64,000 nucleotides of DNA from positions 62,001-126,000 of the forward strand of contig NZ_AMSF01000095.1 of assembly GCF_000334915.1 (NCBI RefSeq). Reading direction: 5' to 3'. This stretch comes from Dyella ginsengisoli LA-4 (lineage in GTDB: Bacteria; Pseudomonadota; Gammaproteobacteria; Xanthomonadales; Rhodanobacteraceae). The notes beneath the pieces are model-generated. The model was not told the DNA's origin, ran no database searches, and saw only the letters and a program-made list of their open reading frames with translations. This document shows, piece by piece, positions 1 through 59,814 of the stretch. Made by a program: the position numbers and the translations under genes. Position 1 is the stretch's first letter; each line of letters begins with the position of its first letter.

Positions 1-129
1 CTCCAGCCGGGTACCGATGAGGAACAGCGCGTTGCAGACCACAGCACAGGAAAAGGCGATCTCCAGCACCAGCAGCCCCGCCGCGATCCGGTGGCGTCCC
101 AAGGCACGAAGAATGTGGCGTAGATGCAT
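1..129 (-). CDS. FtsX/MacB-type ABC permease, B-type of pair 5 (partial, 3' end outside window)
   Basis: Only the first 43 codons are in the window. The ATG at 129 follows an AGGA-type ribosome site. The visible part is a short basic leader (RALGRHR) and the first membrane segment (LLVLEIAFSCAVVCNALF), closely matching the starts of the four complete B-type permeases on the right. It begins 10 bases after the stop of permease A5, the same junction seen in the other pairs. It belongs to the subgroup of B3 and B4 (IAxxCAVxCNA) rather than that of B1 and B2. By inference it is a half-subunit of a split MacB-like exporter. The end of the gene and of the operon lie to the left. Confidence 0.85.
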   Translation of the reverse strand, partial: MHLRHILRALGRHRIAAGLLVLEIAFSCAVVCNALFLIGTRLE

Positions 130-139
130 CGTGGGTGTC

Positions 140-1432
140 CTAGTTCGACTTCAGGGCCACGGCCGGGGCGACGTGCATGGCCCTCCAGGCGGGCAGGAGT
201 CCGGCCAGCAGGCTGCTGAGCAGGGCCAGCACGAAGGTCGCCAGCAGCATGCTCGGATCCATGCGGATCAAGCCGGCGTAGTCGGTCGGCTGATGGCGTA
301 CCAGCACCAGGCCCAGGCCGGCCAGCGCCAGCCCGCACACGCCACCGGCCAGTCCGACCACTCCGGCCTCGACCAGGCACTGCATGAAGATCGCGCGACG
401 CGACGCACCCAGCGCGCGCCGCACGCTGATCTCGCCGCTGCGACGCAGGAACTTGGCCAGCAACAGGCCCACGGTGTTGAGCAGGCAGATGCCGAGAAAG
501 CCCAGTGCCAGCCACACCTGCAACCGCACGTCCGAAGGCACCACGCCCTTGGCGTCCAGCCACTGCATCACGTCCAGCAGGCGGATCTGTCCGGGGTGGG
601 TGAAGCGTCCGGCCTGTCGCTGCTGGGCCATGTAGTTTTGCAGGTATTGCCGGTAAGCCCGTCGTGTCGACGGGGCGTCGAGCTCGGCCCAGTACTGCAG
701 CCACAGACAAGGCGCATCCGCGGCGTGCTCGTCGGGAACATTGCCCCAGCAATTCATCGTGCCGCTGGTCGCCAGATGCAGATCCAGCGCCGTAGCCAGC
801 GGGACGAACACCTGCTCGCTGTCACCGAACCGGCCGTTGCTGAGATCGTAGAAGCGGGGATTCATGCTCCAGTCGTCCAGCACGCCGACGATCCGCAGCG
901 ACTGGCCTCCCACCTGCAGCATCGAGCCGGTGCTGTCGCGACCGCCGAACAGCTGATCGTTCAACGCGGCCGAGATCACCGCCACCCGGGCGTGGTGACC
1001 GTCGTCGCCACGATCCCAGCCGTGACCGAAGCGAAACGGCACGGCGAACATCGCGAAGAAATCCGCCGTGGTGTAGCGCGCCTCCAGGCTCAACGGATCG
1101 CCCTGTGCCGGCGTCACCACCATGGTGCCGGCCGACATCATCGCCTGGCGATCGGCACGGGCGTCGCGCAGCAGCGCCTCGGCATCCCGACGGGTCAGGT
1201 TGTCCGGCACCTTGTCGCCGGGCCTGAAATTGTCGTCCGGAAACACGTTCAGGCCCACGCGGAACAGGTCCGCGCTCTTCTGCGGGATCGGATCACCCGA
1301 CAGCACGTGCATGACCGTCAACGTGGTCATGCTGGTACCGATACCCACCGCGATGGCCAACACCATCAGGGCGGTGAGAACCTTGTTGCGTTTCAGGCTG
1401 CGCAGGGCCAGATCGAGGTAGTAACTGATCAT
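140..1432 (-). CDS. FtsX/MacB-type ABC permease, A-type of pair 5
   Basis: A 430-residue membrane protein without its own ATPase domain. The start (MISYYLDLALRSLKRNK) follows a GGAGGAG ribosome site and matches the other A-type starts. One N-terminal membrane helix (about 18-42) is followed by a large periplasmic MacB_PCD-like domain, then three C-terminal helices with the FtsX-family motif VRRALGAS. The periplasmic domain holds two cysteines 13 residues apart (NCWGN and PCLW) that recur in all five A-type proteins. The family exports drugs, peptides or lipoproteins together with a MacB-type ATPase and a MacA-type adaptor; the substrate here is unknown. Confidence 0.88.
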   Translation of the reverse strand: MISYYLDLALRSLKRNKVLTALMVLAIAVGIGTSMTTLTVMHVLSGDPIPQKSADLFRVGLNVFPDDNFRPGDKVPDNLTRRDAEALLRDARADRQAMMSAGTMVVTPAQGDPLSLEARYTTADFFAMFAVPFRFGHGWDRGDDGHHARVAVISAALNDQLFGGRDSTGSMLQVGGQSLRIVGVLDDWSMNPRFYDLSNGRFGDSEQVFVPLATALDLHLATSGTMNCWGNVPDEHAADAPCLWLQYWAELDAPSTRRAYRQYLQNYMAQQRQAGRFTHPGQIRLLDVMQWLDAKGVVPSDVRLQVWLALGFLGICLLNTVGLLLAKFLRRSGEISVRRALGASRRAIFMQCLVEAGVVGLAGGVCGLALAGLGLVLVRHQPTDYAGLIRMDPSMLLATFVLALLSSLLAGLLPAWRAMHVAPAVALKSN

Positions 1433-1487
1433 CGGGGACTCCTCCGCCCTGTACGCTCGCTGCACTCCTGCATCGCCATGGGTCGCC

Positions 1488-2711
1488 TCACACCGATCGC
1501 GTCGCCACTACCGGCGGCACGGCAGCCGCGCGCAGCGCCGGTCCCAGCACGGCGACCTGGCCGATCAGCCACAACGCGACGGCGCCGACCGGGAAGTAGA
1601 TCGCGGGCAGGCGCGGCAGCTCGTAGTGCTGCATCAGGAACAGGTTGATGCCGTAGGCCAGCACCATGCCGAGGCCGATGCCGATGGTGGCGAGCAGGAA
1701 GTTCTCGGTCTGGAAGTAGTGCAGGATGTTGGCGCGGGTGGCGCCCAGCGCCCGCCGCACGCCGATCTGCCGGCGACGCTGTGCCACCCAGAAACTGCCC
1801 AGCCCGACGATGCCCAGCGCGGTCACCACCAATAGCGCGATGCATACCCCCACCAGCAGCACGGCCATCGCACGGTCCTGGCGGAAGAAATCGCTGCGCA
1901 TGTCGTCCCAGATGTGCTGCGCGATCACCACCCGGTGCGGGTCGCTCTTCTTCAGTGCGGCGATGGCCGCCTTGAGCACGCGATCGCGCTCGCCGGGCGC
2001 CGTGCGCAGGATGTAGTTGCCGTCGAACACGCGCACCGGGAGGATGCCGGTGTACTGGGCCATGGCGTCGTCCCAGATCGAGGGGCGCACCAGCCCCCTA
2101 ACCACCCCGACCACCCGCAGCGGCACCTCACTGCCCAGGTAGATCTGCTTGCCCAGGGCGCTCTGCCCCGGCCACAGGCGCTCGGCCAGTGCCTGGGTGA
2201 TCACGATGACGCTGGGCAGGTGCTTCAGGTCGCCCGCCTGCGCCGCGTGCACCACCGCGTCGAAGTCCATGTAGTCGTCCGGCTGCAGCATCCGGCCCGA
2301 CACCAGTTGCACGCCGAACGCCTGGGCGAGGTTCTCGCCGAAGTACGTGGTCATGTTCAGCGTGGACTGGCTCTGCTTGGGATCGAGCTTGATGCCGCTG
2401 TTGTTGGACGAGTTGCCGAACGGCACCTGGTTCACCGAGGCCACCTCGGTTACCCCGGGGATCTGCCGCAGCAGCGCCAGGTCTTCGGCCGTACGCGCCT
2501 TTTCGTCGTCGCGGCGGCCGATGTCGGCCAGCCGCAGGTGCACCAGCTCGTGCTCGGCGACGCCGCTGGGCATGTCCATGCGGTGCAGGCGCTGGGTGAT
2601 CAGGAACACCGCATTGCAGACGATCGCGCAGGTCAGCGCGATCTGCAGGATCAGCAGCGTGGCCGTCACCTTGTGGCGGCGCAGGGTGGCAAGGATCGGA
2701 AGGATGTCCAC
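1488..2711 (-). CDS. FtsX/MacB-type ABC permease, B-type of pair 4
   Basis: A 407-residue B-type permease. I start it at the GTG at 2711 (VDILPILATLRRHK), which follows GAGG at six bases and is 8 bases past the stop of A4; longer frames run into that gene. Helix 1 is ILQIALTCAIVCNAVFLI. A periplasmic domain follows, then three helices with the motif FWVAQRRRQIGVRRALGA and the C-terminal signature VPPVVATRSV shared by the B-types. Relative to A-types it has a shorter leader and lacks the cysteine pair. It probably forms a heterodimer with A4 and uses the shared ATPase encoded at 12053-12778. Confidence 0.87.
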   Translation of the reverse strand: MDILPILATLRRHKVTATLLILQIALTCAIVCNAVFLITQRLHRMDMPSGVAEHELVHLRLADIGRRDDEKARTAEDLALLRQIPGVTEVASVNQVPFGNSSNNSGIKLDPKQSQSTLNMTTYFGENLAQAFGVQLVSGRMLQPDDYMDFDAVVHAAQAGDLKHLPSVIVITQALAERLWPGQSALGKQIYLGSEVPLRVVGVVRGLVRPSIWDDAMAQYTGILPVRVFDGNYILRTAPGERDRVLKAAIAALKKSDPHRVVIAQHIWDDMRSDFFRQDRAMAVLLVGVCIALLVVTALGIVGLGSFWVAQRRRQIGVRRALGATRANILHYFQTENFLLATIGIGLGMVLAYGINLFLMQHYELPRLPAIYFPVGAVALWLIGQVAVLGPALRAAAVPPVVATRSV

Positions 2712-2719
2712 GGCGGACC

Positions 2720-4024
2720 TCACTGGCTCTTCAGTTGCAGGGCGGGCGCAACCTGGCAGGCACGCCAGGCGGGCAACAGGCCGGCCAGCAGGCTGGCGCC
2801 CACGGCAAGCAGGAAGGTGGTCAGCAGCATGGTCGGGTCCAGGCGCGCCAGCTCGGCGTAATCGGAGGGTTGGTGGCGCACCGCCCACAGGCCGAGCAGA
2901 GCCAGGCCGAGGCCGCCAAGGCCGCCGGCCAGGCCGATCACCCCGGACTCCACCAGCAGCTGCGCGAACACGTTGCGGCGCGAGGCACCCAGCGCCCGGC
3001 GCACGCCGAGCTCGCCGGCGCGTCGCATGAACTTGGCCAGCATCAGGCCCACCGTGTTCACCAGGCACACCAGCAGGAAGCCGAACGCCAGGTACACCTG
3101 CAGCCGCACGTCGCTCGGCACCACCTTGTTGTAGTCCAGCCACTGCATCAGGCTGCGCAGCCGCACGTTGGGCGGGCGCTGGAAGCGGCCCAGGTCGTGC
3201 TGCTCGCGCGAGTAGTTGACCAGGAACTGCTTGTAGGCGGCGGCCTGGCTGGCGTCGTCCAGTTGCACCCAGAACTGCAGCCAGACGCAGGTGGCCGTTT
3301 CCAGGTGATCCTCGTCGCCACCGCCGCGGCCCCAGCAATCCATCGAGCCGTTGCGGTCCAGCCGCAGGTCGCGGAACGTGGTCAACGGCAGGAACGCGTC
3401 TTCCACGCCGCGATAGCCGCCTGTGTTGAGATCGTAGAAGTGCGGGTTGGGACGCCAGTCGCCGAGCACGCCGATGACCCGGAACGCGGTGTCCTTGATG
3501 CGCAGCGTCTGTCCGGTACTGTCCTTGCCGCCGAACAGCTTGTCGTTGAGCTTGCGGGTGATCACCGCCACGCGCGCCTTGGCATCGTCGTCTGCCGCAT
3601 TCCAGCCGTGGCCGTACAGGAACGGCGCCTGGAACATGGCGAAGAAATCGGCCGTGGTGTAGCGCGCATCGCTGAAGAACGGGTCCAGATCCGATTGCGC
3701 CGGCTGCACCGGCACCGCGCCGCCGGTCATCAGCGCCTGACGAACGCCGCGATGGGCCCGGAGCAGGTTCATGCCGTCGATCCAGGTGACCTGCGCCGGC
3801 GGCTCCTTGCCCGGCTGGTAACCGTCCATGTCCTGCGGATCGAGCTGCGGATAGAACAGCGTTCCGCTGGCCCCGGGAATCGGGTCGCCCGACAGCACGT
3901 GGAACACGGTGAGCGTGGTCATGCTGGCGCCGATGCCGAGCGCGACGGCGAACACCATCAGCGCGGTGAGCGCCTTGTTGCGCTTAAGGCTGCGCAGCGC
4001 GAGATCGAGGTAGTACTGGAACAT
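2720..4024 (-). CDS. FtsX/MacB-type ABC permease, A-type of pair 4
   Basis: A 434-residue A-type permease starting MFQYYLDLALRSLKRNK after a GGAG ribosome site. Helix 1 spans about 18-42 (SMTTLTVFHVLSG at its end), the periplasmic domain about 45-300, and three helices follow at roughly 305-328, 355-380 and 395-418. The FtsX motif is VRRALGAS and the tail is ALQLKS. The paired cysteines lie in MDCWG and TCVW, 15 residues apart. It resembles A3 and A5 more than A1 and A2. A 135-base gap containing a REP-like palindrome separates it from B3 upstream, the longest gap between pairs. Confidence 0.88.
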   Translation of the reverse strand: MFQYYLDLALRSLKRNKALTALMVFAVALGIGASMTTLTVFHVLSGDPIPGASGTLFYPQLDPQDMDGYQPGKEPPAQVTWIDGMNLLRAHRGVRQALMTGGAVPVQPAQSDLDPFFSDARYTTADFFAMFQAPFLYGHGWNAADDDAKARVAVITRKLNDKLFGGKDSTGQTLRIKDTAFRVIGVLGDWRPNPHFYDLNTGGYRGVEDAFLPLTTFRDLRLDRNGSMDCWGRGGGDEDHLETATCVWLQFWVQLDDASQAAAYKQFLVNYSREQHDLGRFQRPPNVRLRSLMQWLDYNKVVPSDVRLQVYLAFGFLLVCLVNTVGLMLAKFMRRAGELGVRRALGASRRNVFAQLLVESGVIGLAGGLGGLGLALLGLWAVRHQPSDYAELARLDPTMLLTTFLLAVGASLLAGLLPAWRACQVAPALQLKSQ

Positions 4025-4056
4025 GGGGTTACTCCGCGCTCATCGTCGAATTTCCC

Positions 4057-4136
4057 GTAGGAGCCCGCTTGCGGGCGATGCTCTTGGCTTCGATGCGAAA
4101 CCAGAGCAAGGGCATCGCCCGCAAGCGGGCTCCTAC
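4057..4136. repeat. REP-like palindrome, copy 1 (25-bp perfect arms)
   Basis: The arms 4057-4081 and 4112-4136 are perfect 25-base inverted repeats around a 30-base loop; GCTCT/AGAGC just inside extends the stem. A second copy with the same arm design occurs at 21030-21115, differing at one arm position in each arm (CTTGCGGG versus CTCGCGGG). It sits between permeases B3 and A4. The form is that of REP/BIME elements spread by RAYT transposases. A transcript would fold here, so it may limit read-through or protect the upstream mRNA. Confidence 0.88.
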
Positions 4137-4159
4137 AGGCAGGCTCGTCATCGGGACTG

Positions 4160-5389
4160 TCATGCCGACCTCGTCGCCACCACCGGCGGCACCGCGGCGG
4201 CGCGCAGTGCCGGGCCGAGTACCGAGGCCTGGCCTATCAGCCACAGCGCGATGGCGCCGGCGGGCAGGTAGAACCAGGGCATGCGGGCCATCTCGTAGCG
4301 GTGCATCAGGTACACGTTGATGCCGAAGGCGAGCGCCATGCCCAGTGCCACGCCGCCGGTGCTGAGCAGGAAGTTCTCGGTCTGGAAGTACTGCAGGATG
4401 TGCGCGCGGCTGGCGCCGACCGCGCGGCGGATGCCGATCTGCCGGCGTCGCTGGTTCACCCAGAAGCTGGTCAGGCCGACGATGCCGAACGCGGTGACCG
4501 CCAGCATCACCACGCACACCAGCACCAGCATCCAGGCCATCGAGCTCATGTCGGCGAAGTAGCGACGGCGGATCTCCGGATAGCCGCGTCCGTGCGCCAC
4601 GCCGCCGGGATTGAGGTCGGCGATCTTCTGCTCGGCTTCGCGCACCAGCCGGTCGCGGTCGCGTGGCGCGCTGCGCACCACGTAATGGGACAGCGCCCCC
4701 TTGGAGCCGGCCGCGCTCATCGGGAAGAACGCCGCGTCGTAGTTGGCCGGAGAGTTCGCGTCGCCGATGTACGGACGCAGCACGTCGGCCACGACGCCGA
4801 TCACCGTGTAGTAGTGCGGCGTGGCATACAGCGTCTTGCCCACGGCCGGCTGCCCCGGCCACATTTTCCCGGCCAGGCTGCGGGTGACCAGCACCACGTG
4901 GGTTTCCGGCAGCGGCGACTTGTCAAAGTGGCTGTCGGCGTAGTCGCCGTCGTTGAAGGAGCGACCCTCGAGCACCTGCAGGCCGAGCGCCGCATCGCCA
5001 CCGCTGCCAAGGAAGTACATCGATACGTTGCGGCTGCTGCGGTCGGTGAGCGCGTCACCCGGCTTGGTGCCGAAACCCCAGCCCCAGTTGTTCTGGCTCA
5101 GCGGCAGGGTGCTCACCACGGCGGCGGCCTGCACGCCCGGCAGGCCACGCAGGGCCGCCAGATTGCGCGGGATGTCGCTGCCGGCCAGTTCGGGGTCGGT
5201 GCCATTGAGCGTGACCTCGGCAATGCCGGCCTCGTCGATGGCATTGGGCAGGTGGATCGAGGCCACGCGCTGGCTGATCATGAACACGGCGTTGCACAGC
5301 ACCGCGCAGGCGAGCGCGATCTCCAGCACGATCAGCAGGGCCGGGATGCGATGCCGGCGAAGGCTGGCGAGAATCGGTCGGATATCCAT
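4160..5389 (-). CDS. FtsX/MacB-type ABC permease, B-type of pair 3
   Basis: A 409-residue B-type permease starting MDIRPILASLRRHR. The ATG at 5389 follows GAGG that overlaps the stop of A3, which lies 8 bases upstream. Helix 1 is LIVLEIALACAVLCNAVFMI. The C-terminal membrane block carries FWVNQRRRQIGIRRAVGAS and the tail VPPVVATRSA. Family and architecture match B4 and B5. Being the last gene before the REP-like palindrome, it may end a transcript segment. Confidence 0.87.
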   Translation of the reverse strand: MDIRPILASLRRHRIPALLIVLEIALACAVLCNAVFMISQRVASIHLPNAIDEAGIAEVTLNGTDPELAGSDIPRNLAALRGLPGVQAAAVVSTLPLSQNNWGWGFGTKPGDALTDRSSRNVSMYFLGSGGDAALGLQVLEGRSFNDGDYADSHFDKSPLPETHVVLVTRSLAGKMWPGQPAVGKTLYATPHYYTVIGVVADVLRPYIGDANSPANYDAAFFPMSAAGSKGALSHYVVRSAPRDRDRLVREAEQKIADLNPGGVAHGRGYPEIRRRYFADMSSMAWMLVLVCVVMLAVTAFGIVGLTSFWVNQRRRQIGIRRAVGASRAHILQYFQTENFLLSTGGVALGMALAFGINVYLMHRYEMARMPWFYLPAGAIALWLIGQASVLGPALRAAAVPPVVATRSA

Positions 5390-5397
5390 GGTCGGCC

Positions 5398-6702
5398 TCA
5401 CATCGCCTTGAGCTGGGGAGCGGGCGCCAGCAGGCAGGCGCGCCAGGCCGGCAGCAGGCCGGCGATCAGGCTGGCCACCAGTGCCACCACGAACGTGAAT
5501 GCGAACATCGCCGGGTCCAGATGCGCCAGGTGCGCGTACTGCGCCGGCTGGTGGCGGATGCCGAACAGGCCCAGCTCGGCGAACGCCAGCCCCAGCGCGC
5601 CCCCGGCGAGGCCGACGATGGAGGCCTCCACCATGAACTGCACGAAGATCTCGCGCCGCGTGGCGCCCAGGGCACGACGCACGCCGATTTCCTGCGAGCG
5701 CCTGAGGCACTTGGCCAGCAGCAGGCCGACAGTGTTCACCACGCAGATCAGCAGGAAGCCGAAGGCAAGGTAGACCTGCAGGCGCACGTCGTCCGGCACC
5801 ACGTGCTGGTCGCGCAACCAGCCCATCAGGTCGAGCAGGGAACTATCGGTGCGCTGGAAGCGGCCGAGGGCGACCTGCTCCTTCACATAGCCATCGAGGA
5901 AGCGGCGGTAACTGGCCACGGCGGAGGAGTCGTCCAGTTCCACCCACAGGCCGAGCCATTGGCAGGGGGCCGTTTCCAGATGGGTGAAATCGTCGACGGC
6001 CTGATAGCACTCGGTGTCCTGCGGCCCCATCTTCAATGCGCGCGCGGCTTTGAGCGGCAGGAATACCGCGTCGCCGTCGCCGTAGTGGTCGCCACCCAGT
6101 CCCAGTGTGTAGAAGCGCGGCTGCGGCGCCCACGGCTTGAGCACGCCGACCACCCGGAAGTCGTGGTCGTTCAGGCGCACCATCCGCCCCACGCTGTCGG
6201 CGCCATCGAACAGCTTGTCGTTGAGGAAGCTGGCGATCACCACCACCTGCGAGCCGCCCTCGTCGTCCGTGGCGCTCCAGCCGCTGCCGTACTGGAACCC
6301 GGCATCGAACATCGCGAAGAAGTCGGCGGTGGTCATCACGCCGTCGCTGAAGAACGGATGCGCATGGGCCTGCGGCGGCATGATCTTGGCCTGGGTCAGC
6401 GCCATCACCGCCTGGCGCGTCGCCCGGTGGGCGTGCAGCAGGTTCATCGCATCCACGTAGCCCATCGTCCGCGGCAACCTGCCGTTCGAGTCGATCGCGC
6501 TGTTCTTCGGGCTGGGATCGAGCTGCGGGTAGAACAACCGCGCACTCTTCTGCGGCAGCGGGTCGCCCGAGAGCAGCCGCAGCACGGTGAGCGTGGTGAT
6601 CGACGCACCGATGCCCAGCGCCAGCGCCAGCACCATCAGCACGGTGAGCACCCGGTTGCGCCGGAGACTGCGTACGGCCAGATCGAGGTAGTAGACCAAC
6701 AT
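5398..6702 (-). CDS. FtsX/MacB-type ABC permease, A-type of pair 3
   Basis: A 434-residue A-type permease starting MLVYYLDLAVRSLRRNR after an AGGGG ribosome site. Helix 1 ends in SITTLTVLRLLSG. The periplasmic domain contains the conserved cysteines (TECYQ and PCQW, 14 residues apart) and the A-type block TTADFFAMFDAGFQYGSGW. Three C-terminal helices include IGVRRALGATRREIF and the tail PQLKAM. Gene B3 follows after 8 bases. Residues of roughly 60-130 differ most from the other A-types, which suggests that the periplasmic face rather than the membrane core has diverged. Confidence 0.88.
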   Translation of the reverse strand: MLVYYLDLAVRSLRRNRVLTVLMVLALALGIGASITTLTVLRLLSGDPLPQKSARLFYPQLDPSPKNSAIDSNGRLPRTMGYVDAMNLLHAHRATRQAVMALTQAKIMPPQAHAHPFFSDGVMTTADFFAMFDAGFQYGSGWSATDDEGGSQVVVIASFLNDKLFDGADSVGRMVRLNDHDFRVVGVLKPWAPQPRFYTLGLGGDHYGDGDAVFLPLKAARALKMGPQDTECYQAVDDFTHLETAPCQWLGLWVELDDSSAVASYRRFLDGYVKEQVALGRFQRTDSSLLDLMGWLRDQHVVPDDVRLQVYLAFGFLLICVVNTVGLLLAKCLRRSQEIGVRRALGATRREIFVQFMVEASIVGLAGGALGLAFAELGLFGIRHQPAQYAHLAHLDPAMFAFTFVVALVASLIAGLLPAWRACLLAPAPQLKAM

Positions 6703-6747
6703 CCCATTGCCCCTTGAGGAATCGTCCCGGCGTTGCCGCCGCCAAGC

Positions 6748-7989
6748 TCACACCGAGCGCGTCGCTTCCACCGGCGGCACGCGCGAAGCCTTCAGGGCGG
6801 GGGCGAGCACGGCCCCTTGCCCCAGTACCAACAGCAGCAGTACGCCGACGATCAGGTAAGCCATCGGCATCGGCTGCGAGGCGAAGCGCAGCATCAGCCA
6901 GAGGTTCATGCAGATGGCCAGCAGCAGCCCCAGCAGCACGCCGCCGCCGGTGATCAGCAGGTTTTCGGTAAGGAAGTAGCTCAGGATGTCGCGCTGACGG
7001 GCACCGAGCGCCCGGCGTACGCCGATCTGCTTGCGCCGCTGCCCTACCCAGAAACTGGTCAGGCCCACGATGCCCGCGGCGGTCACCGCCAGCAGCACCA
7101 CGCAGATGATTGCCATCAGCACGGCCATGCCGCGATCGGTCTCGAACACCTTCTGACGGATGGCAGCGTAGTCCTGGATGCCGTCTTTCGGATCGATGAT
7201 GCGCATGCGGCTCTGGGCGAGCAGTGCCTTCGGCGCCTCGCGCATCGCCGCAGCGAGCTGACCAGGCTTGGCGCGCACGATGTAATGGATGCCGCGCACG
7301 TCGGCGCTCCGCAGCGGCCAGATCAGCGACTGCCCGGCGTACCTGTTGCTCGACAAATCGACCCCTTGCCGATGCAGCGGATCGATGATGCCGATGATGG
7401 TGCTTGGCGTGGTGCCCATCGCGTAGAAGCTCTTGCCCAATGCTTTTCCATCGGGAAACAGGCGATCGGCCAGCGCTTTGCTCACGATCACCGTCGCCGG
7501 AGTGATGTTCTGCTGGGTACCCACCACCGACACTTCGTCTGGACGGAAATTGCGCCCCGCAACGAGCTTGAGACCCAGTGCATTGATGAAGTGCTCGTCG
7601 CCGAGATATACCGCCGCGTCGGTGGTCGGCTTGACCTGGTCGAGTGTCATGGTGACCAAGTTGTCCCAACCGCCGCCCTGCAACGGGTAGCCGCTGGCGG
7701 GCGCCGCATCCAGCACGCCAGGCAATTGCCGAAGAGCGAGCAAGTCGGCACGCACCTGCGCATCGACCTGCGATGTCGACTCGTCGGCGTTGGCCCACTG
7801 GTTGCTGATGACGAACACGTTGGCCTCGTCCACGCCGCTGGCCTGGGACAGATTGGCCAGCCGCTGGTGGATGATGAACAGCGCGTTGCACACGATGGCC
7901 AACGTCAGCGCGATCTGCAATGCGATCAGCGCGGTACCTGCCTTGTGCCGCCGCAGCGCGATGAGGATGGGCCGAATCTGGATATTCAT
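6748..7989 (-). CDS. FtsX/MacB-type ABC permease, B-type of pair 2
   Basis: A 413-residue B-type permease starting MNIQIRPILIALRRHKAG after a GGAG site, 10 bases past the stop of A2. Helix 1 (LIALQIALTLAIVCNALFII) places it with B1 in a subgroup distinct from B3-B5. The distal membrane block reads FWVGQRRKQIGVRRALGARQRDIL and the protein ends PPVEATRSV. It has no ATP-binding motifs and so depends on a separate ATPase, presumably the one at the head of the operon. Confidence 0.87.
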   Translation of the reverse strand: MNIQIRPILIALRRHKAGTALIALQIALTLAIVCNALFIIHQRLANLSQASGVDEANVFVISNQWANADESTSQVDAQVRADLLALRQLPGVLDAAPASGYPLQGGGWDNLVTMTLDQVKPTTDAAVYLGDEHFINALGLKLVAGRNFRPDEVSVVGTQQNITPATVIVSKALADRLFPDGKALGKSFYAMGTTPSTIIGIIDPLHRQGVDLSSNRYAGQSLIWPLRSADVRGIHYIVRAKPGQLAAAMREAPKALLAQSRMRIIDPKDGIQDYAAIRQKVFETDRGMAVLMAIICVVLLAVTAAGIVGLTSFWVGQRRKQIGVRRALGARQRDILSYFLTENLLITGGGVLLGLLLAICMNLWLMLRFASQPMPMAYLIVGVLLLLVLGQGAVLAPALKASRVPPVEATRSV

Positions 7990-7999
7990 GGCGGTCTCC

Positions 8000-9319
8000 T
8001 CAGCTGGACTTCAATTGCCAAGCTGGCTGCACGCGCGCGGCACGCCACGCCGGGTAGAACGCCGCAAGCACGGTGGCAACGATGGCCACAGCGAACGTCA
8101 AAGCAACGAGCGACGGATCGAGCTTGGCCAGCTTCGCGATTTCCGGGCGGAACAACACGCCAACACCAGCCACGCCTATCGCGGTGAACAACAGGCCCAG
8201 CAGGCCGCCGGCCAGGCCCACCGTGCCGGCCTCGATCAGGTATTGCGTATAAATCTCGCCGCGGGTCGCGCCCAGGGCGCGGCGCACGCCGATCTCGCCG
8301 GCGCGGCGCATGAATTTCGCCAGCAACAGACCGATCGTGTTGACCAGGCAGATCAGGAAGAACCCGAGCGCCACGGCCAGCGAAATGCGGCTCTCCGGCG
8401 GCACCACCTGTTCGTAGTCCATCCACTGCATCACGTCACGCAACCGCACGTTCGGCGCCCAGTTGAAGCGGCCGGCATGCTGCTGCTCGGCGGCGTAGTT
8501 GGTCAGGAAGCGACGATAGCCCGCGACTTCGGCGGGACTGTCCAGCTCCACCCACGGCGTGATCCATACGCAGTTGCTTTGCAGGTACTCCTGCCAAGTG
8601 GTGTAGCTGAGCGAACCGCGGCAACTGTTCCGACCGCCCGGACGCATCTCCAGATCCATCGCGCGGTTGAACACCATGTAGATGTCCGGCTCCTTCCCGA
8701 AGCCGTTGGTGCTGAACAGGTCATAGAAACGAGGACGCGGGTTCCAGTGACTCGTGACACCCACGATCTGGTAGTCGTGGCCGCCGAGGTCGAGGGTGCG
8801 ACCCACGCTGTCGGCGCCCCCGAACAGCTTCTGGTTGAGCACGTCGCTGATGACGATCCCACTGGCACGCGCGTCGTCATCCCGAGTGCTCCAGCCCCCG
8901 CCATAGCGGAAAGGAACCTCGAACATGGTGAAGAAATCGCTGGTGACGGCATAACCATTGGCGTTCAGAGGCAGATCGCGGTTGCCGCCCGGTATCACCG
9001 AGAGCTGCACCTTGTAGAGCACCGTCTGGCGCCTAGCCTTATGCGCTGTCATCAAAGCCATCGCGTCGATGTAGCCCAGCGCTTCGCCCGGCTCGTTGTT
9101 CTGCAGGTTCTGCTGCGGCCCCCAACCGTCGATCTGCGGCGTGAACAGCCGCGCCGACTTGTCCGGAATCGGGTTGCCCGACACCGCGCGAAACACCGAG
9201 TAGGTGGTCATCGATGCGGCCACGCCGAAGCCAATCGCCATCACCATCAGGGCGGTGAGCATCGGGTTGCGCCGCAGGCTGCGCAATCCCAGCCGGAAGT
9301 AGTAGTCGAGCATCACCAT
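8000..9319 (-). CDS. FtsX/MacB-type ABC permease, A-type of pair 2
   Basis: A 439-residue A-type permease. I chose the ATG at 9319 (MVMLDYYFRLGLRSLRR) because GGAG lies seven bases upstream; the ATG two codons later aligns better with the other A-types and is the alternative. Helix 1 ends SMTTYSVFRAVSG, as in A1. The cysteines are in NSCRG and NCVW, 16 residues apart. The distal block has IGVRRALGATRGEIY and the tail AWQLKSS. The gap from B1 is 52 bases. Confidence 0.87.
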   Translation of the reverse strand: MVMLDYYFRLGLRSLRRNPMLTALMVMAIGFGVAASMTTYSVFRAVSGNPIPDKSARLFTPQIDGWGPQQNLQNNEPGEALGYIDAMALMTAHKARRQTVLYKVQLSVIPGGNRDLPLNANGYAVTSDFFTMFEVPFRYGGGWSTRDDDARASGIVISDVLNQKLFGGADSVGRTLDLGGHDYQIVGVTSHWNPRPRFYDLFSTNGFGKEPDIYMVFNRAMDLEMRPGGRNSCRGSLSYTTWQEYLQSNCVWITPWVELDSPAEVAGYRRFLTNYAAEQQHAGRFNWAPNVRLRDVMQWMDYEQVVPPESRISLAVALGFFLICLVNTIGLLLAKFMRRAGEIGVRRALGATRGEIYTQYLIEAGTVGLAGGLLGLLFTAIGVAGVGVLFRPEIAKLAKLDPSLVALTFAVAIVATVLAAFYPAWRAARVQPAWQLKSS

Positions 9320-9371
9320 GGATGGACTCCGCGCGGCAGGTGCCGATGGACGGGTGGTGGCGAGCGGTGCG

Positions 9372-10625
9372 TCATGCCGACCGCGTAGCCACCACCGGCG
9401 GCACGTTCGATGCACGACGCGCCGGGGCGAATACCGCGCCCTGCCCCAGCGCCATCACCGCCACGATGCCGGCCAGCACGTACAGCACCGGCAGGCGGTC
9501 CATCTCGAAATGCTTCATCAGCAGCATGTTCAGTCCGATCGCCAGGCCCAGCCCGATCAGCGCACCGGCACCGGAGATCAGCAGGTTCTCCATCTGGAAG
9601 TAGTGCAGGATGTCGATCTTTCGCGCGCCCAGCGCGCGCCGCACACCGATCTGACGGTGGCGCTGGCCGACCCAGAAGCTGGTCAGGCCGACGATGCCGG
9701 CGGCGGTGACGCCCAGCAGGATCAGGCAGACCACGCCCATCAGGATCGCCATGCCGACGTCGGAGCGGTAGGCCTCCTGGCGGATCTGCGCGAACGACTT
9801 GACGCTGTCGTCGTCCAGTACGCGCATGCGGCTCACCCCGTACAGCACGTCGGGCACGGCGTGCATCACCGCCTGCAGACGCCCCGGCTTGGTGCGGATC
9901 GCGTAGCGCGAGAAGTTGGCGTTCAGGCGGAACGGCTCGATCGTCGCGTTCCAGAGGAAACCGTTGACCCAGCTGCCGGTGGACGGAGCCTGCAAGCGCT
10001 CCACCTCGCCGATGATGGTGCTGGGCGAGCTGCCGCCGTCCAGGTAGATCGCCTTGCCCAGCGCGTCGCCCTTCGGATACAGCTTGTCGGCCAGCGCCTT
10101 GGTCACGATGATCACCGCCGGCGTGCCGCTGTCGCGGAAGCCGCGGTTGCGCACGTCGGCCGCAGTGAAGCCGCGCCCGGCCACCAGCTTCAGGCCCAGC
10201 GTCTTGAGCAGGTGCTCGTCGCCGAAGTAGTAGACGCTGCGGGCGTTGCCCGCGCGCAGGTCGCTGCCGGGCTTGAGCGCCACCGAGCCGGTCCACGACG
10301 AGTTGAGCAGCGGCAGCGAATTGATCGGCACCACCGATTCCACGTCCGGCATCGCGCGCAGGGCGGCGAGGTCGGCCTGCAGCAGGCTGTCGAGCTTCTC
10401 CACGTCTCCGGGCTGGTCGCCGCTGGGTGCACCGACCCAACTCTGGGTGACCAGCATCAGGTTGTCTTCCACCAGGCCGGTGGGCCGGTTCACGCGCTCG
10501 ATGCGCTGGCCGATGATGAACACCGCGTTGCAGACGATGGCCAGGGTCAGTGCGATCTGCAGGGCGATCAGCACCACGCCCGCCTTGTGCCGGCGCAGGG
10601 CCGCGATCATGGGATGGAGCTTCAT
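9372..10625 (-). CDS. FtsX/MacB-type ABC permease, B-type of pair 1
   Basis: A 417-residue B-type permease starting MKLHPMIAALRRHKAG, with AGGA in the stop region of A1, 10 bases upstream. Helix 1 (LIALQIALTLAIVCNAVFII) is almost the same as in B2. After the periplasmic domain come three helices with FWVGQRHRQIGVRRALGARKIDIL, and the tail VPPVVATRSA. With A1 it forms the pair nearest the ATPase gene, possibly the ancestral unit of the array. Confidence 0.87.
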   Translation of the reverse strand: MKLHPMIAALRRHKAGVVLIALQIALTLAIVCNAVFIIGQRIERVNRPTGLVEDNLMLVTQSWVGAPSGDQPGDVEKLDSLLQADLAALRAMPDVESVVPINSLPLLNSSWTGSVALKPGSDLRAGNARSVYYFGDEHLLKTLGLKLVAGRGFTAADVRNRGFRDSGTPAVIIVTKALADKLYPKGDALGKAIYLDGGSSPSTIIGEVERLQAPSTGSWVNGFLWNATIEPFRLNANFSRYAIRTKPGRLQAVMHAVPDVLYGVSRMRVLDDDSVKSFAQIRQEAYRSDVGMAILMGVVCLILLGVTAAGIVGLTSFWVGQRHRQIGVRRALGARKIDILHYFQMENLLISGAGALIGLGLAIGLNMLLMKHFEMDRLPVLYVLAGIVAVMALGQGAVFAPARRASNVPPVVATRSA

Positions 10626-10635
10626 GGCGTGATCC

Positions 10636-11952
10636 TCAGTTCGACTTCAGCTGCCAGGCGGGCTGCACGCGCGAGGCCCGGAAGGTGGGATAGAGACCGG
10701 CCAGCATCGTGGCGACCACGGCGACGAGCAGGGTGATGGCCAGCAGCGAGACGTCCAGCCGCGCCAGCGAGGCGATGTCCTTGGGCATCACCCAGCCCAC
10801 GCTGGCCACGCCGACGCCGGTCAGCAGCAGTCCCAGCACGCCACCGGCCAGGCCGACGATGCCGGCCTCGGTGAGGAACTGCGCGTAGATCGCGCTGCGC
10901 TGCGCGCCCAGGGCGCGGCGCACGCCGATCTCGCTGCTGCGACGCAGGAACTTGGCCAGCAGCAGGCCGGCGGTGTTGACCAGGCAGACCACCAGCAGGC
11001 CCAGGGCGACCAGCAGCGAGACCTTGGTGTCGCTGGGCACCACGTGCTCGGCGTCGAGCCAGGCCGGCACGTCGCGCAGACGATTGTTGGGTGCCCAGCC
11101 GAAACGCCCGGCCTTCTGCTGGTCCCGCGCGTAGCCGTCGAGGTACTCGCGATAGGCCTGCACCGCCGCGGCATCGTCCAGCTGCACCATGTAGGCCATC
11201 CACACGCAGCTCGAATGCTGCAGGCCGACGAAGCCGGACTCCTTCGGCACTTCGTTGCAGTTGGTGTTGCCGTTGTTCGGCATGCCCACGTCGATGGCGC
11301 GATTGAACGGCAGGAACACGTCCTCGGCGCCGTCGGTGAAGCCGCCGGTGTTGACCACGTCGAAGAAGCGCGGCTGCGGGTTCCAGTGGTCGGTCACGCC
11401 GACCACGCGGTAGTCCTTGCCCTCGATGTCCAGCGTGCGGCCGACGCTGTTCTGCCCACCGAACAGCTTGTCGTTGAGCTTGCTGCTGATCACTGCCACC
11501 GCCGAGCGCTGGGTGTCGTCGTCCGCGGTCCAGCCGGCGCCGTACTTGAACGGCACGTCGACCATCGGGAAGAACTCACTGAACACCGCATGCCCGCTGA
11601 CGTTGATGGGATGCTTGCTGGCGTTGGCCGGGACCACCGACGGCGAGATCTGGTACATCGCCGACTGGTACCTGGCGCGGTGCGCGCGCATCAGCGCCAT
11701 CGCATCGGTGTAGTCCATCGCGTCCGGCGGGTCGCCGTTCGGGTCGCGCGCCTTCGGTCCCCACATGTCGATCTGCGGCACGAAAAGCTTGGAGGATTTC
11801 CACGGAATCGGATCGCCCGATACCGCGCGGAACACCGAATAGGTGGTCATCGACGCGGCGACGCCGAAACCGATCGCCAGCACCATCAGCAGGGTCAGGC
11901 CGCGGCTGCGCTTGAGGCTTCGCAACGCCAGTTCGAAATAGTAGGCAAACAT
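10636..11952 (-). CDS. FtsX/MacB-type ABC permease, A-type of pair 1
   Basis: A 438-residue A-type permease. The start MFAYYFELALRSLKRSR follows GAGGAT and aligns with the other A-types; a longer in-frame start at 11997 is less likely. Helix 1 ends SMTTYSVFRAVSGDP. The cysteine pair is TNCNE and SCVW, 16 residues apart. The distal block has IGVRRALGAQRSAIY and the tail AWQLKSN. It lies 100 bases after the ATPase gene and is the first permease gene transcribed. Confidence 0.88.
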   Translation of the reverse strand: MFAYYFELALRSLKRSRGLTLLMVLAIGFGVAASMTTYSVFRAVSGDPIPWKSSKLFVPQIDMWGPKARDPNGDPPDAMDYTDAMALMRAHRARYQSAMYQISPSVVPANASKHPINVSGHAVFSEFFPMVDVPFKYGAGWTADDDTQRSAVAVISSKLNDKLFGGQNSVGRTLDIEGKDYRVVGVTDHWNPQPRFFDVVNTGGFTDGAEDVFLPFNRAIDVGMPNNGNTNCNEVPKESGFVGLQHSSCVWMAYMVQLDDAAAVQAYREYLDGYARDQQKAGRFGWAPNNRLRDVPAWLDAEHVVPSDTKVSLLVALGLLVVCLVNTAGLLLAKFLRRSSEIGVRRALGAQRSAIYAQFLTEAGIVGLAGGVLGLLLTGVGVASVGWVMPKDIASLARLDVSLLAITLLVAVVATMLAGLYPTFRASRVQPAWQLKSN

Positions 11953-12052
11953 GAGCCGATCCTCGGAATGACTTGCACGACCGGGGACGCGCGGCATCGC
12001 TGCCGCGGACCTTTCCCCTGCATGACGCGGCGGCCGTGGCCGCCGCAGACGC

Positions 12053-12778
12053 TCAGCTGCGTCCCTGCCCCTGGCGGGCCTCGACGACGTGCGCGTGGAA
12101 GCGCGGGTCTTCGGCGAGGTCGACCACCTGGCCGTCGATGATGTGCACGTTGCGCTGCGCGCGCGCCGCCAGCTCCGGATCGTGCGTCACCATCACGATG
12201 GTCGCGCCCTCGCGATGGATCTCCTCCAGCAGTTCCATCACGCCGCGGGCCATCTGGGTGTCCAGGTTGCCGGTCGGTTCGTCCGCCAGCAGCAGGCGGG
12301 GGGAGCCGGCCAGCGCCCGGGCGATCGCCACGCGCTGCTGCTGACCGCCCGACAGTTCCGCCGGATAGTGCTTGGCACGCGAGGCCAGGCCGACGCGCTC
12401 GAGCGCACCCATGATGCGCTCCTTGCGCTCGGGCGCCTTCATGCCGCGGTAGCGCAGCGGCACCTCGACGTTGTCGAACACGTTGAGGTCGGGGATCAGG
12501 TTGAACGCCTGGAAGATGAAGCCGATTTTCTCGTTGCGGATCTTCGAGCGGGCGTTGTCGTCGAGCTGGCTCACCTCGATGCCATCCAGGTGGTATTGAC
12601 CACCGGTGAAGGTCTCCAGCAGGCCGGCGATGGTGAGGAAGGTCGTCTTGCCCGAACCGGACGGGCCGGTCACGGCGACGAATTCGCCTTCCTTCACGTC
12701 GATGTTGAAATCGCGCAGCGCATAGGTTTCCACCACTTCGGTGCGGTAGACCTTGGACAGGTGGGTCATCTTGAGCAT
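12053..12778 (-). CDS. MacB/LolD-type ABC transporter ATPase
   Basis: A 241-residue cytoplasmic ATPase that powers the export permeases. The visible motifs are Walker A GPSGSGKT (38-45), Q-loop Q90, signature LSGGQ (142-146), Walker B with LLLADEPTG (162-170) and the switch histidine in MVTHD (199). This is the MacB/LolD/FtsE class, in which the ATPase drives a mechanical permease cycle. In E. coli MacB the ATPase and permease are fused; here they are separate. It is the only ATPase gene in the operon, so up to ten permeases probably share it. The start follows AAGGA. A 182-base gap holding a large hairpin separates it from the adaptor gene. Confidence 0.95.
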   Translation of the reverse strand: MLKMTHLSKVYRTEVVETYALRDFNIDVKEGEFVAVTGPSGSGKTTFLTIAGLLETFTGGQYHLDGIEVSQLDDNARSKIRNEKIGFIFQAFNLIPDLNVFDNVEVPLRYRGMKAPERKERIMGALERVGLASRAKHYPAELSGGQQQRVAIARALAGSPRLLLADEPTGNLDTQMARGVMELLEEIHREGATIVMVTHDPELAARAQRNVHIIDGQVVDLAEDPRFHAHVVEARQGQGRS

Positions 12779-12815
12779 GGCTTTTCCTTACTCGTTGGTG
12801 GTCTGGAGGGTGGTG

Positions 12816-12954
12816 GCGGGGAACGGGGGATGGAGAGTCGGGAACACCGCATTCGCTGATCTGGGGAGAGCACCTCGCGGTCCCGTCGTCCGGCAGTCAC
12901 GGCAAACTGCGGCGGCGGATCTGATTTCCCGACTCTCCATCCCCCGTTCCCCGC
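12816..12954. repeat. Large hairpin element with 29-bp perfect inverted repeats
   Basis: Arms 12816-12844 and 12926-12954 are perfect 29-base inverted complements separated by 81 bases. One arm is purine-rich (it contains GGGGGATGGAGAG) and the other is its complement. The element fills most of the gap between the adaptor stop (12961) and the ATPase start (12778). It resembles in design, though not in exact sequence, the pepA-holC element at 39071-39235. It could be a small non-autonomous repeat element. In the operon transcript it would form a very stable stem that may reduce read-through from adaptor to ATPase. Confidence 0.85.
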
Positions 12955-12960
12955 GCGTCT

Positions 12961-14232
12961 TCAACTGCTGATGGCGACGCGCTGGGCGCCCTTGAAGCTG
13001 TCGGTACCGGAGATCACGATCTTGTCGCCTTCCTTCAGGCCGTCGAGGATCTCCACCTTGTCGATGCTGCTGGCGCCCACGCGGATCGGCGTCTTCACGG
13101 CGATGCCGTCGCGCACCACGTAGGCATAGTTGCCACCGGACTCGTCGACGAACGAGCCGCGCTGCACGGTCAGCACGTTGTCGCGCTTGTCCAGCAGCAC
13201 GCGCACCGACAGACGCTGGCTCTGGCGCAGCTGCTTGGGCGTGGCGCCATCGAAGGCCAGCCGCGCGGCGACCTCGCCATTGACCACTTCCGGCGAGATG
13301 GCGCTGACCTTGCCGTGCCAGGTCTGGCCGTTGCCGGTGATTTCGCCGGGCATGCCGATGCCCAGGTCGCGGGCAAAGCTCTCCGGCACCTGCATCTCCA
13401 CCTGCAGCGCGGTCAGGTCGATCACGCTGAGCAATTGGGCGTCCTTGGCCACGGTGGCGCGCTCGGCGATGAACAGCTGGCCGACCTGGCCGTCCACCGG
13501 CGACTTCACGTTGAGGTCGTCGACCTGGCGTTGCAGGTCCTGCACCAGCAGCTTCTGCCGCTCATAGGCGAGCTTCTTCGATTCGATGTTGAAGTTCAGG
13601 CTGTCGTTGTCCAGGCCGAGGTTGGCCTTGGCGTGGCGCTCGGCGATCTGCGCCTTCTCCAGGGTGTCGTGGGCGGTGTCGACATCGGTCTTGGACACGG
13701 CGCCCTTGGCGTAGGCGGCCTCGTTGCGATCGACCGTGCGCTTGGCGGCCTGGGCGTCGATCTGCGCATTGTCGTAGGCCTGTTGCAGCGCCGCGCGCTG
13801 CTTCTTCGCGTCGATCTGGGCGCGCTTGTAGTCGACTTCCATCGCATCGGCGTTGGACTGTTCCTGCGCCAGCTTGTTGGTCAGTTCGGGACTGACGATG
13901 GTCGCCAGTACCTGGCCCTTCTTCACGGTGTCGCCGGCGTGCACCTTCAGCGTGACCGCGCCACCCGAGGTCGCGTAGAGCGTGGGGCTGTTCGCCGCCA
14001 CCACCTTGCCCTCGGCGGCGATGTCGCGCACGAACGGACCGCGGGTCACCGTGGCGAAAGCCAGGCGCGAGGCGCTGACCGAGGCGTCGGCGGAGAACAT
14101 CCGCATCACCCCGGGCAACGCCAGCGCCAGCACGGCGACCACGGCGACGCCCACGCCGATCAGCAGCATCCGGCGCTTGCGGTTGGATTTGACCTCGACC
14201 AGGCGGTCTTGGGCGGAGGTGTCACGGATCAT
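12961..14232 (-). CDS. HlyD/MacA-type periplasmic adaptor subunit
   Basis: A 423-residue membrane-fusion protein. A basic leader is followed by one membrane helix at about 20-43, then a lipoyl-like half-motif, a long charged coiled-coil hairpin (about 110-245), the second lipoyl half (SPVDGQVGQLFIAERATV) and a beta-barrel/membrane-proximal region. In the family, such adaptors link an inner-membrane ABC exporter to an outer-membrane TolC-type channel. No TolC homologue is in the window. It is the first gene of the export operon, with a sigma-54 promoter ending 49 bases upstream of its ATG. Confidence 0.93.
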   Translation of the reverse strand: MIRDTSAQDRLVEVKSNRKRRMLLIGVGVAVVAVLALALPGVMRMFSADASVSASRLAFATVTRGPFVRDIAAEGKVVAANSPTLYATSGGAVTLKVHAGDTVKKGQVLATIVSPELTNKLAQEQSNADAMEVDYKRAQIDAKKQRAALQQAYDNAQIDAQAAKRTVDRNEAAYAKGAVSKTDVDTAHDTLEKAQIAERHAKANLGLDNDSLNFNIESKKLAYERQKLLVQDLQRQVDDLNVKSPVDGQVGQLFIAERATVAKDAQLLSVIDLTALQVEMQVPESFARDLGIGMPGEITGNGQTWHGKVSAISPEVVNGEVAARLAFDGATPKQLRQSQRLSVRVLLDKRDNVLTVQRGSFVDESGGNYAYVVRDGIAVKTPIRVGASSIDKVEILDGLKEGDKIVISGTDSFKGAQRVAISS

Positions 14233-14280: not shown

Positions 14281-14296
14281 AGCAATGGCCGTGCCA
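14281..14296 (-). promoter_or_regulatory. Sigma-54 (-24/-12) promoter of the export operon
   Basis: Read on the minus strand the sequence is TGGCACGGCCATTGCT, an exact match to the sigma-54 consensus TGGCAC-N5-TTGC(A/T). It points at the adaptor gene, whose ATG is at 14232. The -24 element is 14291-14296 and the -12 element 14281-14285, so transcription should start near 14268-14272. Confidence 0.88.
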
Positions 14297-43267: not shown

Positions 43268-43307
43268 GCGATCCCCTTGCGCCCGGGACGACCGGGACGC
43301 AACCGCG

Positions 43308-43318
43308 ATCATGCCAAA
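43308..43318 (-). promoter_or_regulatory. Motif TTTGGCATGAT shared by the two hybrid-kinase upstream regions
   Basis: On the minus strand TTTGGCATGAT lies 41 bases upstream of this kinase's start. The same motif with one change occurs at 46988-46998 upstream of the paralogue. It may be a shared promoter or operator element. The evidence is only the similarity of two sites. Confidence 0.35.
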
Positions 43319-43346
43319 TTGCGCGCTCCCTTACCCGCCTCCGGGA

Positions 43347-46300: not shown

Positions 46301-46904
46301 GCGTGCCGTCCGCTTGCGCGCGCAGCGCGCCGACCACCGTATCGCGGGTACCCGGCTTGCCGTCGAACGCCGCCAGGTAAGATACGTGGGCCAGCGAGCG
46401 GCCATCGGCCGAAAGGTGATCCAGCCCCGACGCGGTACCGATCCACAGGCTGCGGTCCGGCGCCAGCGCGAGGGAATAGATGACGTCGTCGGACAGGCTG
46501 TCCGCGCGCCTGTCATCGTGACGCCAGTGGCGCACCCGACCGGTCGCCGGATCGAGCCGGTCCAGGCCGGCATCGCCGGTGCCGATCCACACCGTGCCGT
46601 CGCCCGCGTCCACCAGCTGGGTGACGTCCTGGCTGCCCAGCGAAGCCGGATCGTCCGGCTCGTGCACCCAGGTGGTGAAGCCGACGCCGTCGTAGCGGCT
46701 CACACCGCCCGAGCCGCCGAACCACATCATGCCGTCGCGGTCCTGCATCACCGCGTTCACCGCCGCTCCCGGCAAGCCGTCGGCGATGCCGTAGCGACGG
46801 AACTGTGGCGTAGCCAGCGGCGGAGCCGCCGGGCGGGCAGTGGCTGGCGCGCTTCCCGCGGTCGCGGCCAGGGCGAGCATCCATCCGAACAACAACGACA
46901 CCAT
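43347..46904 (-). CDS. Hybrid sensor histidine kinase with two-component-regulator propeller (paralogue 2)
   Basis: A 1185-residue kinase with the same layout as paralogue 1: signal peptide (1-22), propeller repeats (about 35-690; e.g. [18 protein letters not shown]), Y_Y_Y domain, membrane helix at about 775-795, HisKA with His near 831 ([11 protein letters not shown]), ATPase motifs ([38 protein letters not shown]) and a receiver with Asp near 1110 ([12 protein letters not shown]). The ATG at 46904 is preferred, having AGGGG six bases upstream; an ATG two codons earlier abuts that site. The kinase domains are nearly identical to paralogue 1 while the sensors differ, implying different ligands. 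Confidence 0.93.
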
Positions 46905-59794: not shown

Positions 59795-59814
59795 GACGTC
59801 CACCCGCCCTCATC

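Follow-up and report, generated by a model that had tools for sequence, protein, structure and literature searches.

The 64,000-nucleotide stretch analyzed here, called the window throughout, covers positions 62,001 to 126,000 of contig NZ_AMSF01000095.1 of Dyella ginsengisoli LA-4 (G000:C95:62001-126000). Its left end carries an operon in which a periplasmic adaptor and a stand-alone ATP-binding cassette (ABC) ATPase precede a series of alternating permeases of two types, A and B. The genes are all transcribed from the minus strand, in the order adaptor, ATPase, A1-B1-A2-B2-A3-B3-A4-B4-A5. Beyond the left edge of the window, contig C95 continues with B5, A6, B6, A7 and B7, followed by a 202-amino acid open reading frame (ORF), a DUF885 gene, an NtrC-type sigma-54 regulator, a 107-amino acid ORF and a histidine kinase, so that the whole array comprises seven A-B pairs, or 14 permeases, behind one adaptor and one ATPase. 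A preliminary description, made from the sequence of the window, had recognized the adaptor, the ATPase and five A-B pairs and had assigned at least ten permeases to the single ATPase and adaptor. The order, direction and alternation stand, as do the single copies, but the number five came from the window edge, and the window itself holds nine complete permeases and the start of B5. Additional ATPase genes immediately left of the window, which that description had named as evidence against its proposal, were looked for by profile search, and no second ATPase of the operon's family scored above 60 bits within 8 kb of the array. The array is real and larger than first seen from the window.

Composition and promoter of the operon

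The permeases A1, B1 and B7 were scanned against Pfam and all three showed MacB_PCD and FtsX domains, and the remaining permeases were recognized with profiles built from the set itself. A and B are separate genes encoding proteins of 430-439 and 405-417 amino acids. A1 resembles the N-terminal half of the fused ADOP model (TIGR03434; 188.1 bits) and B1 its C-terminal half (164.5 bits), so that the pair as a whole is the counterpart of an ADOP permease split in two, and on the basis of these alignments the two proteins most likely form a heterodimer. AlphaFold2 models of A4 and B4 contained four transmembrane helices with a large periplasmic domain between helices 1 and 2 in a MacB-like fold, and their best structural matches were the MacB structures 5nik and 5gko (E 4e-19 and 1e-21). 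LolCDE, YbbAP, BceAB and FtsEX were among the weaker matches. As modeled, the permeases have the MacB/FtsX fold that characterizes type VII ABC systems. The adaptor is HlyD-type by Pfam and reached 135 bits against TIGR01730 (RND_mfp, cut-off 94.9); its best solved relatives are MacA chains, and it scored 60.9 bits against the MacA equivalog model PRK11578 (cut-off 342). The ATPase matched ABC_tran in Pfam, with DarD as the best NCBIfam model, under its cut-off, and LolD as the second best; the Walker A, LSGGQ, Walker B and H-loop motifs were recognized in it by eye. Elsewhere in this genome, the TolC-type family PF02321 has 25 matches.

Upstream of the adaptor lies a promoter-like element of the -24/-12 type, identified with the sigma-54 consensus. 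It matches TGGCAYGNNNNTTGCW perfectly, unlike any other site in the 64-kb window, and 48 bases separate it from the adaptor start codon. Among relatives, at least 10 of 11 matches to TGGCACNNNNNTTGCW were present in the 250 bases before the adaptor in 131 of 146 regions, with the element starting 47-83 bases before the adaptor start. At the same threshold the element was found before none of 146 ATPase genes, 6 of 327 later A genes and 1 of 77 regulators, nor was it present before the first A in any of seven regions without an adaptor, one of which (G116) is a main array whose adaptor lies outside the fetched stretch. The element, together with the NtrC-type regulator at the operon end, suggests from sequence that the whole operon is under one sigma-54 switch. 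Passages of a sigma-54 regulon survey report enrichment of COG0577 permeases in Gammaproteobacteria, Opitutia and Bacteroidia (PMC12316311).

Table 1. Features of the operon, with positions given in the coordinates of the window
Feature	Position	Strand	Basis or remark
Sigma-54 (-24/-12) promoter-like element	14281..14296	-	Perfect match to TGGCAYGNNNNTTGCW
Periplasmic adaptor (MacA/RND-type membrane fusion protein), 423 amino acids	12961..14232	-	TIGR01730, solved MacA relatives
Stand-alone type VII-like ABC ATPase, 241 amino acids	12053..12778	-	ABC_tran; closest NCBIfam model DarD
Permease A1 (MacB_PCD + FtsX)	10636..11952	-	Pfam; ADOP positions 7-401 of 803
Permease B1 (MacB_PCD + FtsX)	9372..10625	-	Pfam; ADOP positions 411-802 of 803
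Permease A2	8000..9319	-	Profile from set
Permease B2	6748..7989	-	Profile from set
Permease A3	5398..6702	-	Profile from set
Permease B3	4160..5389	-	Profile from set
Permease A4	2720..4024	-	Profile from set; AlphaFold2 model pLDDT 83.8
Permease B4	1488..2711	-	Profile from set; AlphaFold2 model pLDDT 91.0
Permease A5	140..1432	-	Profile from set
Permease B5, first 129 bases only in window	1..129	-	Full B5 = L009:14906-16129

The 202-amino acid ORF between B7 and DUF885 (L009:9029-9637) is present also in genomes G029 and G045; its product had no Pfam or NCBIfam match and was not found in G003.

Copy number and cassette replacement among relatives

Copies were counted in relatives by profile search on stop-to-stop frames. 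The 76 complete arrays are not a random sample, because genomes were picked to span pair numbers and some loci end 10 kb beyond the adaptor, which favors short arrays. They contained one pair in 29 cases, two in 12, three in 4, four in 6, five in 7, six in 6, seven in 6, eight in 3, nine in 2 and eleven in 1. All 76 have a single adaptor, and 75 have a single full ATPase, the ATPase of G068 lying in two frames. The pair counts and ATPase-to-permease ratio in relatives, proposed as a check in the preliminary description, therefore gave one to eleven pairs for one full ATPase. Among 72 more arrays that were partly visible, one adaptor was seen in 71 and one ATPase in all. Strict A-B alternation is kept in 74 of the 76 complete arrays (exceptions L115 and G492), which indicates that the layout is more than chance. 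A TolC-type gene lies within seven of the 76, with PF02321 confirmed in the one tested. In Rhodanobacter glycinis MO64 the adaptor and the ATPase are followed by TolC, eleven pairs, the regulator and the kinase, and the array of Rhodanobacter C01 was read as six A and seven B genes.

Of the 147 genomes sampled in the window's family, 139 contained A-type permeases, with 1 to at least 11 per genome. In the order they were found in 86 of 151 genomes, 62 of them outside the family and 46 of these 62 with a single match. At the level of the class they occurred in 8 of 321 genomes, the window's own genome counted. Named relatives bearing the adaptor include Dyella, Frateuria, Rhodanobacter, Luteibacter, Fulvimonas and Pinirhizobacter, and a second family of the order likewise contains multi-pair arrays (G550, G582 and G311). 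No report of such arrays was found in the literature searched, which consisted of open PMC papers. A contig labeled Candidatus Eremiobacteraeota (L138) carries a 76%-identical adaptor of the array and is possibly mis-binned Rhodanobacteraceae DNA. In some arrays, ankyrin-repeat and/or alpha/beta-hydrolase (serine aminopeptidase-like) genes lie between the cassettes, as in G073 (L027:13306-15277), G145 and G046.

The A and B genes of a pair evolve together. Distances between A proteins and between B proteins agree by pair (r 0.908, against 0.129 ± 0.021 for within-genome shuffles; 283 pairs), and in same-position comparisons the identities of A and B correlate at r 0.964 (387 comparisons in 131 close genome pairs). 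These values do not support an evolutionary mode in which A and B are freely exchanged from one pair to another, and the term combinatorial used in the preliminary description, if taken to mean the A of one pair working with the B of another, does not fit them. When the 387 comparisons were set against backbone identity, both permeases were within 0.05 of it in 49, both were below it in 297, A only in 5 and B only in 36. The excess of B-only over A-only cases suggests faster drift of B or an occasional exchange of B without A. The figure of 297 is an upper bound on replacement, since positions were matched by rank despite inserted cassettes and since the permeases outpace the adaptor and ATPase that set the backbone.

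Within an array the cassettes are strongly diverged, with identity never above 0.69 and a median of 0.45 (750 comparisons), while the nearest relative outside the array is 0.83 identical at the median (436 pairs from 151 regions). Recent tandem duplication is ruled out as the origin of the pairs by the first of these figures, and tandem expansion, as the array had been characterized in the preliminary description, is a misleading term, since recent duplicates are absent among the cassettes of any one array. Clustering at 65% identity gave 89 cassette types, 46 of them singletons, and the count still rises with sampling.

Some cassettes have been replaced as A-B units between close relatives while their neighbors stayed. 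This was seen in comparisons within the genus, of the window genome (G000) with Dyella lutea (G029) and with G045, where nucleotide identities are medians of the best local match and are to be read as upper bounds. Identity is 0.91-0.97 in those genes of the operon and its flank that do not encode permeases and 0.88-0.97 in cassettes 1, 3 and 5, whereas it is 0.68-0.84 in cassettes 2, 4, 6 and 7, A together with B. Silent-site divergence between G000 and G045 follows the same division, with 0.12-0.30 for adaptor, ATPase, regulator and kinase, 0.14-0.35 for cassettes 1, 3 and 5, and 0.39-0.94 for cassettes 2, 4, 6 and 7, so that the difference in these four is not merely faster protein evolution. 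Between G029 and G045, cassette 6 differs likewise, and G029 has an eighth pair that G045 does not. Differential loss from a large ancestral repertoire is a poor fit to cassette 2, which shows about 2-4 times more silent divergence between G000 and G045 than its neighbors 1 and 3, but it may explain part of the differences in cassette type. Across regions, A and B of a cassette were both more alike than the adaptor of the same regions in 2790 of 81,936 comparisons, many of which are repeat matches of a few cassettes, and by at least 0.10 in 60; judged from these identities, such cassettes fit lateral transfer. Gene conversion was examined as a recombination handle, and silent sites at some conserved cassette ends were only mildly more alike than elsewhere.

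Proposed sharing of the ATPase and alternative explanations

On the basis of these features, the product of the locus is probably an exporter of tripartite type that belongs to the type VII (MacB/FtsX) ABC class and combines a fixed chassis with cores that can be exchanged. One ATPase, one adaptor and a TolC-like duct would make up the chassis; TolC-type genes are present elsewhere in the genome and, in some relatives, inside the operon. Each A-B pair would form one heterodimeric core of two four-helix permeases with MacB-like periplasmic heads. The ATPase dimer would dock on the conserved coupling helices of any A-B dimer that it meets, the adaptor would connect the ATPase-bound dimer to the duct, and the divergent periplasmic heads would set which periplasmic substrate is expelled, perhaps peptides or lipopeptides. 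The DUF885 gene beside the array and the aminopeptidase-like and ankyrin genes inserted in some arrays weakly hint at peptides. The sigma-54 promoter would turn the operon on as a unit, presumably through its own NtrC-type regulator and kinase, and the repertoire would shift as A-B cassettes are replaced or added through recombination between lineages.

The ratio of one ATPase gene to many pairs does not by itself prove that the ATPase is shared, and the position of pairs outside the arrays is informative in this respect. In six genomes the fetched regions contain between one and three A-B pairs that lie apart from the array and lack an adjacent intact ATPase, and some of the six have still more scattered A matches beyond these regions. 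In five of the six regions there was no ATPase-like ORF at E ≤ 1e-3. The sixth, from G550 and distant from the array, contains an intact A-B pair with a 127-amino acid ATPase remnant (L198:10630-11010) immediately upstream; the remnant matches the ATPase model at positions 1-50 and 173-224 only, the middle of the protein being gone. This decayed remnant appears to be natural evidence that a pair can be retained in the absence of an ATPase of its own. In every one of the six genomes a single ATPase reaches 454-507 bits against this family, and the next scores at most 307. In G045 (L018:9190-13682) and G010 (L093), the outside pairs lack an ATPase and are preceded by genes for a histidine kinase and a LytTR-type regulator, which were checked with Pfam in G045. 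The parts of the permeases predicted to face the ATPase are also the conserved ones: over 436 pairs, mean pairwise identity was 0.80-0.82 in the major coupling helix and 0.80 (B) and 0.66 (A) at the C-terminus, against 0.43 (A) and 0.33 (B) in the periplasmic part, and a strict coupling motif was present in 406 of the A and 403 of the B proteins. The shared-ATPase model of the preliminary description thus gains from one ATPase accompanying one to eleven pairs, from outside pairs without an intact ATPase and from the conserved ATPase-facing parts, while sharing at the protein level is what we infer from sequence.

Several observations weigh against this reading. Of the 436 proteins of each type, 30 A and 33 B do not have the strict coupling motif. 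The motif is common to type VII permeases generally, and it is no proof of docking on this particular ATPase. Other type VII-like ATPases are encoded in the genome and could contribute. When the nearest outside relative was determined separately for A and for B, both pointed to the same pair in only 163 of 283 cases. A profile search found no TolC gene in this genome's own operon, and no substrate gene was identifiable near the operon. Strong constraint on the ATPase also fell away as an argument, since a first contrast rested on five single-pair genomes and shrank when 25 single-pair and 30 multi-pair genomes were compared. ATPase tree length relative to the regulator is 0.45 in multi-pair and 0.55-0.58 in single-pair groups, which is only a modest slowing, and the pairwise ATPase/adaptor ratio is the same in multi-pair and single-pair lineages (0.31 and 0.32), leaving a slower ATPase as a weak line of support.

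The availability of other ATPases leads to an alternative that we regard as unlikely, in which the operon's ATPase serves one or few pairs and the rest borrow other type VII ATPases of the genome. The nearest of these, on contig C58, is 58% identical to that of the operon, and the others are 39-49% identical. However, the C58 ATPase belongs to a cousin locus (G000:C58, L011:8026-18953) with its own adaptor, three fused ADOP-like permeases of 802-818 amino acids, an NtrC-type regulator and a kinase, preceded by a sigma-54 element with one mismatch (L011:7998-8013), and the ATPase on C75 is accompanied by its own two-permease set. All 14 coupling helices of this genome are of one motif, and the outside pairs described above, one of them beside the decayed remnant, occur in genomes with a single high-scoring ATPase, all of which argues against borrowing. 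Fused permeases in two and three neighboring copies were seen also in other Gammaproteobacteria (G186 and G264).

It is similarly improbable, in our estimate, that the pairs act as mechanotransmitting sensors or signal relays in the manner of BceAB or FtsEX, sensing envelope stresses or peptides and feeding their own kinase and NtrC-type regulator with no export. Such a role would agree with the histidine kinase and regulator in the operon and with the BceAB and FtsEX chains among the weaker structural matches, and sensing and signaling members are described among type VII systems in passages of PMC5985334. Against it, MacB is the top structural match of both permeases, and the MacA/RND-type adaptor in every complete array, together with the TolC-type gene in seven, points to a trans-envelope duct. 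Less probable still is a largely passive array, a recombination-prone locus that gathers alleles without distinct functions. The range of copy numbers and the frequent cassette differences between close relatives would be expected from such a locus, but the ceiling on identity within arrays, the retained A-B alternation and purifying selection speak against it. The ratio of nonsynonymous to synonymous divergence (dN/dS) in non-replaced cassettes was 0.03-0.12 for G000 against G045 and 0.03-0.14 over the three closest same-genus comparisons, which indicates purifying selection; over all five cassettes of G550 against G582 it was 0.07-0.30.

Features of the window apart from the operon include a BlaR1-like M56 peptidase and BlaI-like repressor pair (57858-59803) and two adjoining propeller/Y_Y_Y hybrid histidine kinases of 1196 and 1137 amino acids (39677-46760). 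Between 54100 and 56322 the G+C content falls to 0.61, and short ORFs exist there, with no gene called by the gene finder. Searches for RNA families and tRNAs found none in the window, this segment included.

Relation to known systems

A possible biological role is provided by dssA of Rhodanobacter R179. Passages of PMC11928319 describe it as an ABC permease within an operon of 17 genes. There, its orthologues are reported from 74.7% of Xanthomonadales genomes, and it is required if flg22-triggered inhibition of root growth and FRK1 induction are to be fully suppressed. The array described here is likewise common in Xanthomonadales, and that of R. panaciterrae comprises exactly 17 genes; however, by gene calling the eight Rhodanobacter arrays that were read span 13-27 genes, and only that of R. 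panaciterrae matches 17. As a lead whose identity is unproven, dssA may lie in this kind of operon, and this offers a testable idea about the cause of the dssA phenotype of root commensals, so far unexplained. The most far-reaching version of our proposal is speculative and, taken as a whole, rather doubtful: one ATPase and one adaptor would drive every A-B cassette, each with a different substrate, the cassettes would come from a pool recombining across genera, the output would dampen plant immunity in root-living Rhodanobacteraceae, and one permease would be that published as dssA. If sharing of the ATPase is true, the array would represent a natural type VII ABC motor that accepts many cores and would reveal residues for ATPase docking as opposed to substrate choice. 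The cassettes also amount to a natural swap experiment, with single-cassette differences between close relatives in an otherwise near-identical operon.

The ADOP family is known for large paralogous sets of MacB/FtsX permeases, and its genes are described as orphans without an ATPase gene. The likeness to ADOP lies in the correspondence of A and B to the two halves of its model. ADOP, however, is a single chain of about 800 amino acids, whereas here two separate genes score far under the curated cut-off of 622.3 and the operon supplies an ATPase, full in 75 of the 76 complete arrays, and an adaptor. MacAB-TolC shares with the array the MacB fold of both permeases and, less clearly, a MacA-like adaptor and the TolC-type gene of seven arrays, but in MacB the ATPase is fused, and here a separate ATPase gene accompanies up to 11 A-B cores; A1 scored 54.5 bits against the MacB model PRK10535 (cut-off 966). 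LolCDE is a heterodimeric type VII permease with its ATPase as a separate gene, according to passages of PMC8277102. It resembles the array in this arrangement, in the structural match and in LolD as the second-best ATPase model, and differs in that LolCE models were under cut-off and that an RND-type adaptor and many pairs are present here. The darobactin exporter DarBCD (NF038007, NF038008 and NF038010) gave 255.5 bits with DarD on the ATPase and 89.2 bits with DarC on the adaptor, short of the cut-offs of 375 and 450, and DarB is one fused permease of about 777 model positions.

Multitask ATPases are known from importers, where MceG has been named as one. For MsmX and MsmK, passages of PMC7658222 describe several permease sets driven by one ATPase. 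These three serve import, whereas the array belongs to an exporter-like type VII class and holds its cores within one operon. Compared with all of these systems, the operon is best read as a type VII ABC system with split-ADOP cores and a MacA-like adaptor, in which the new feature is a fixed chassis with exchangeable cores.

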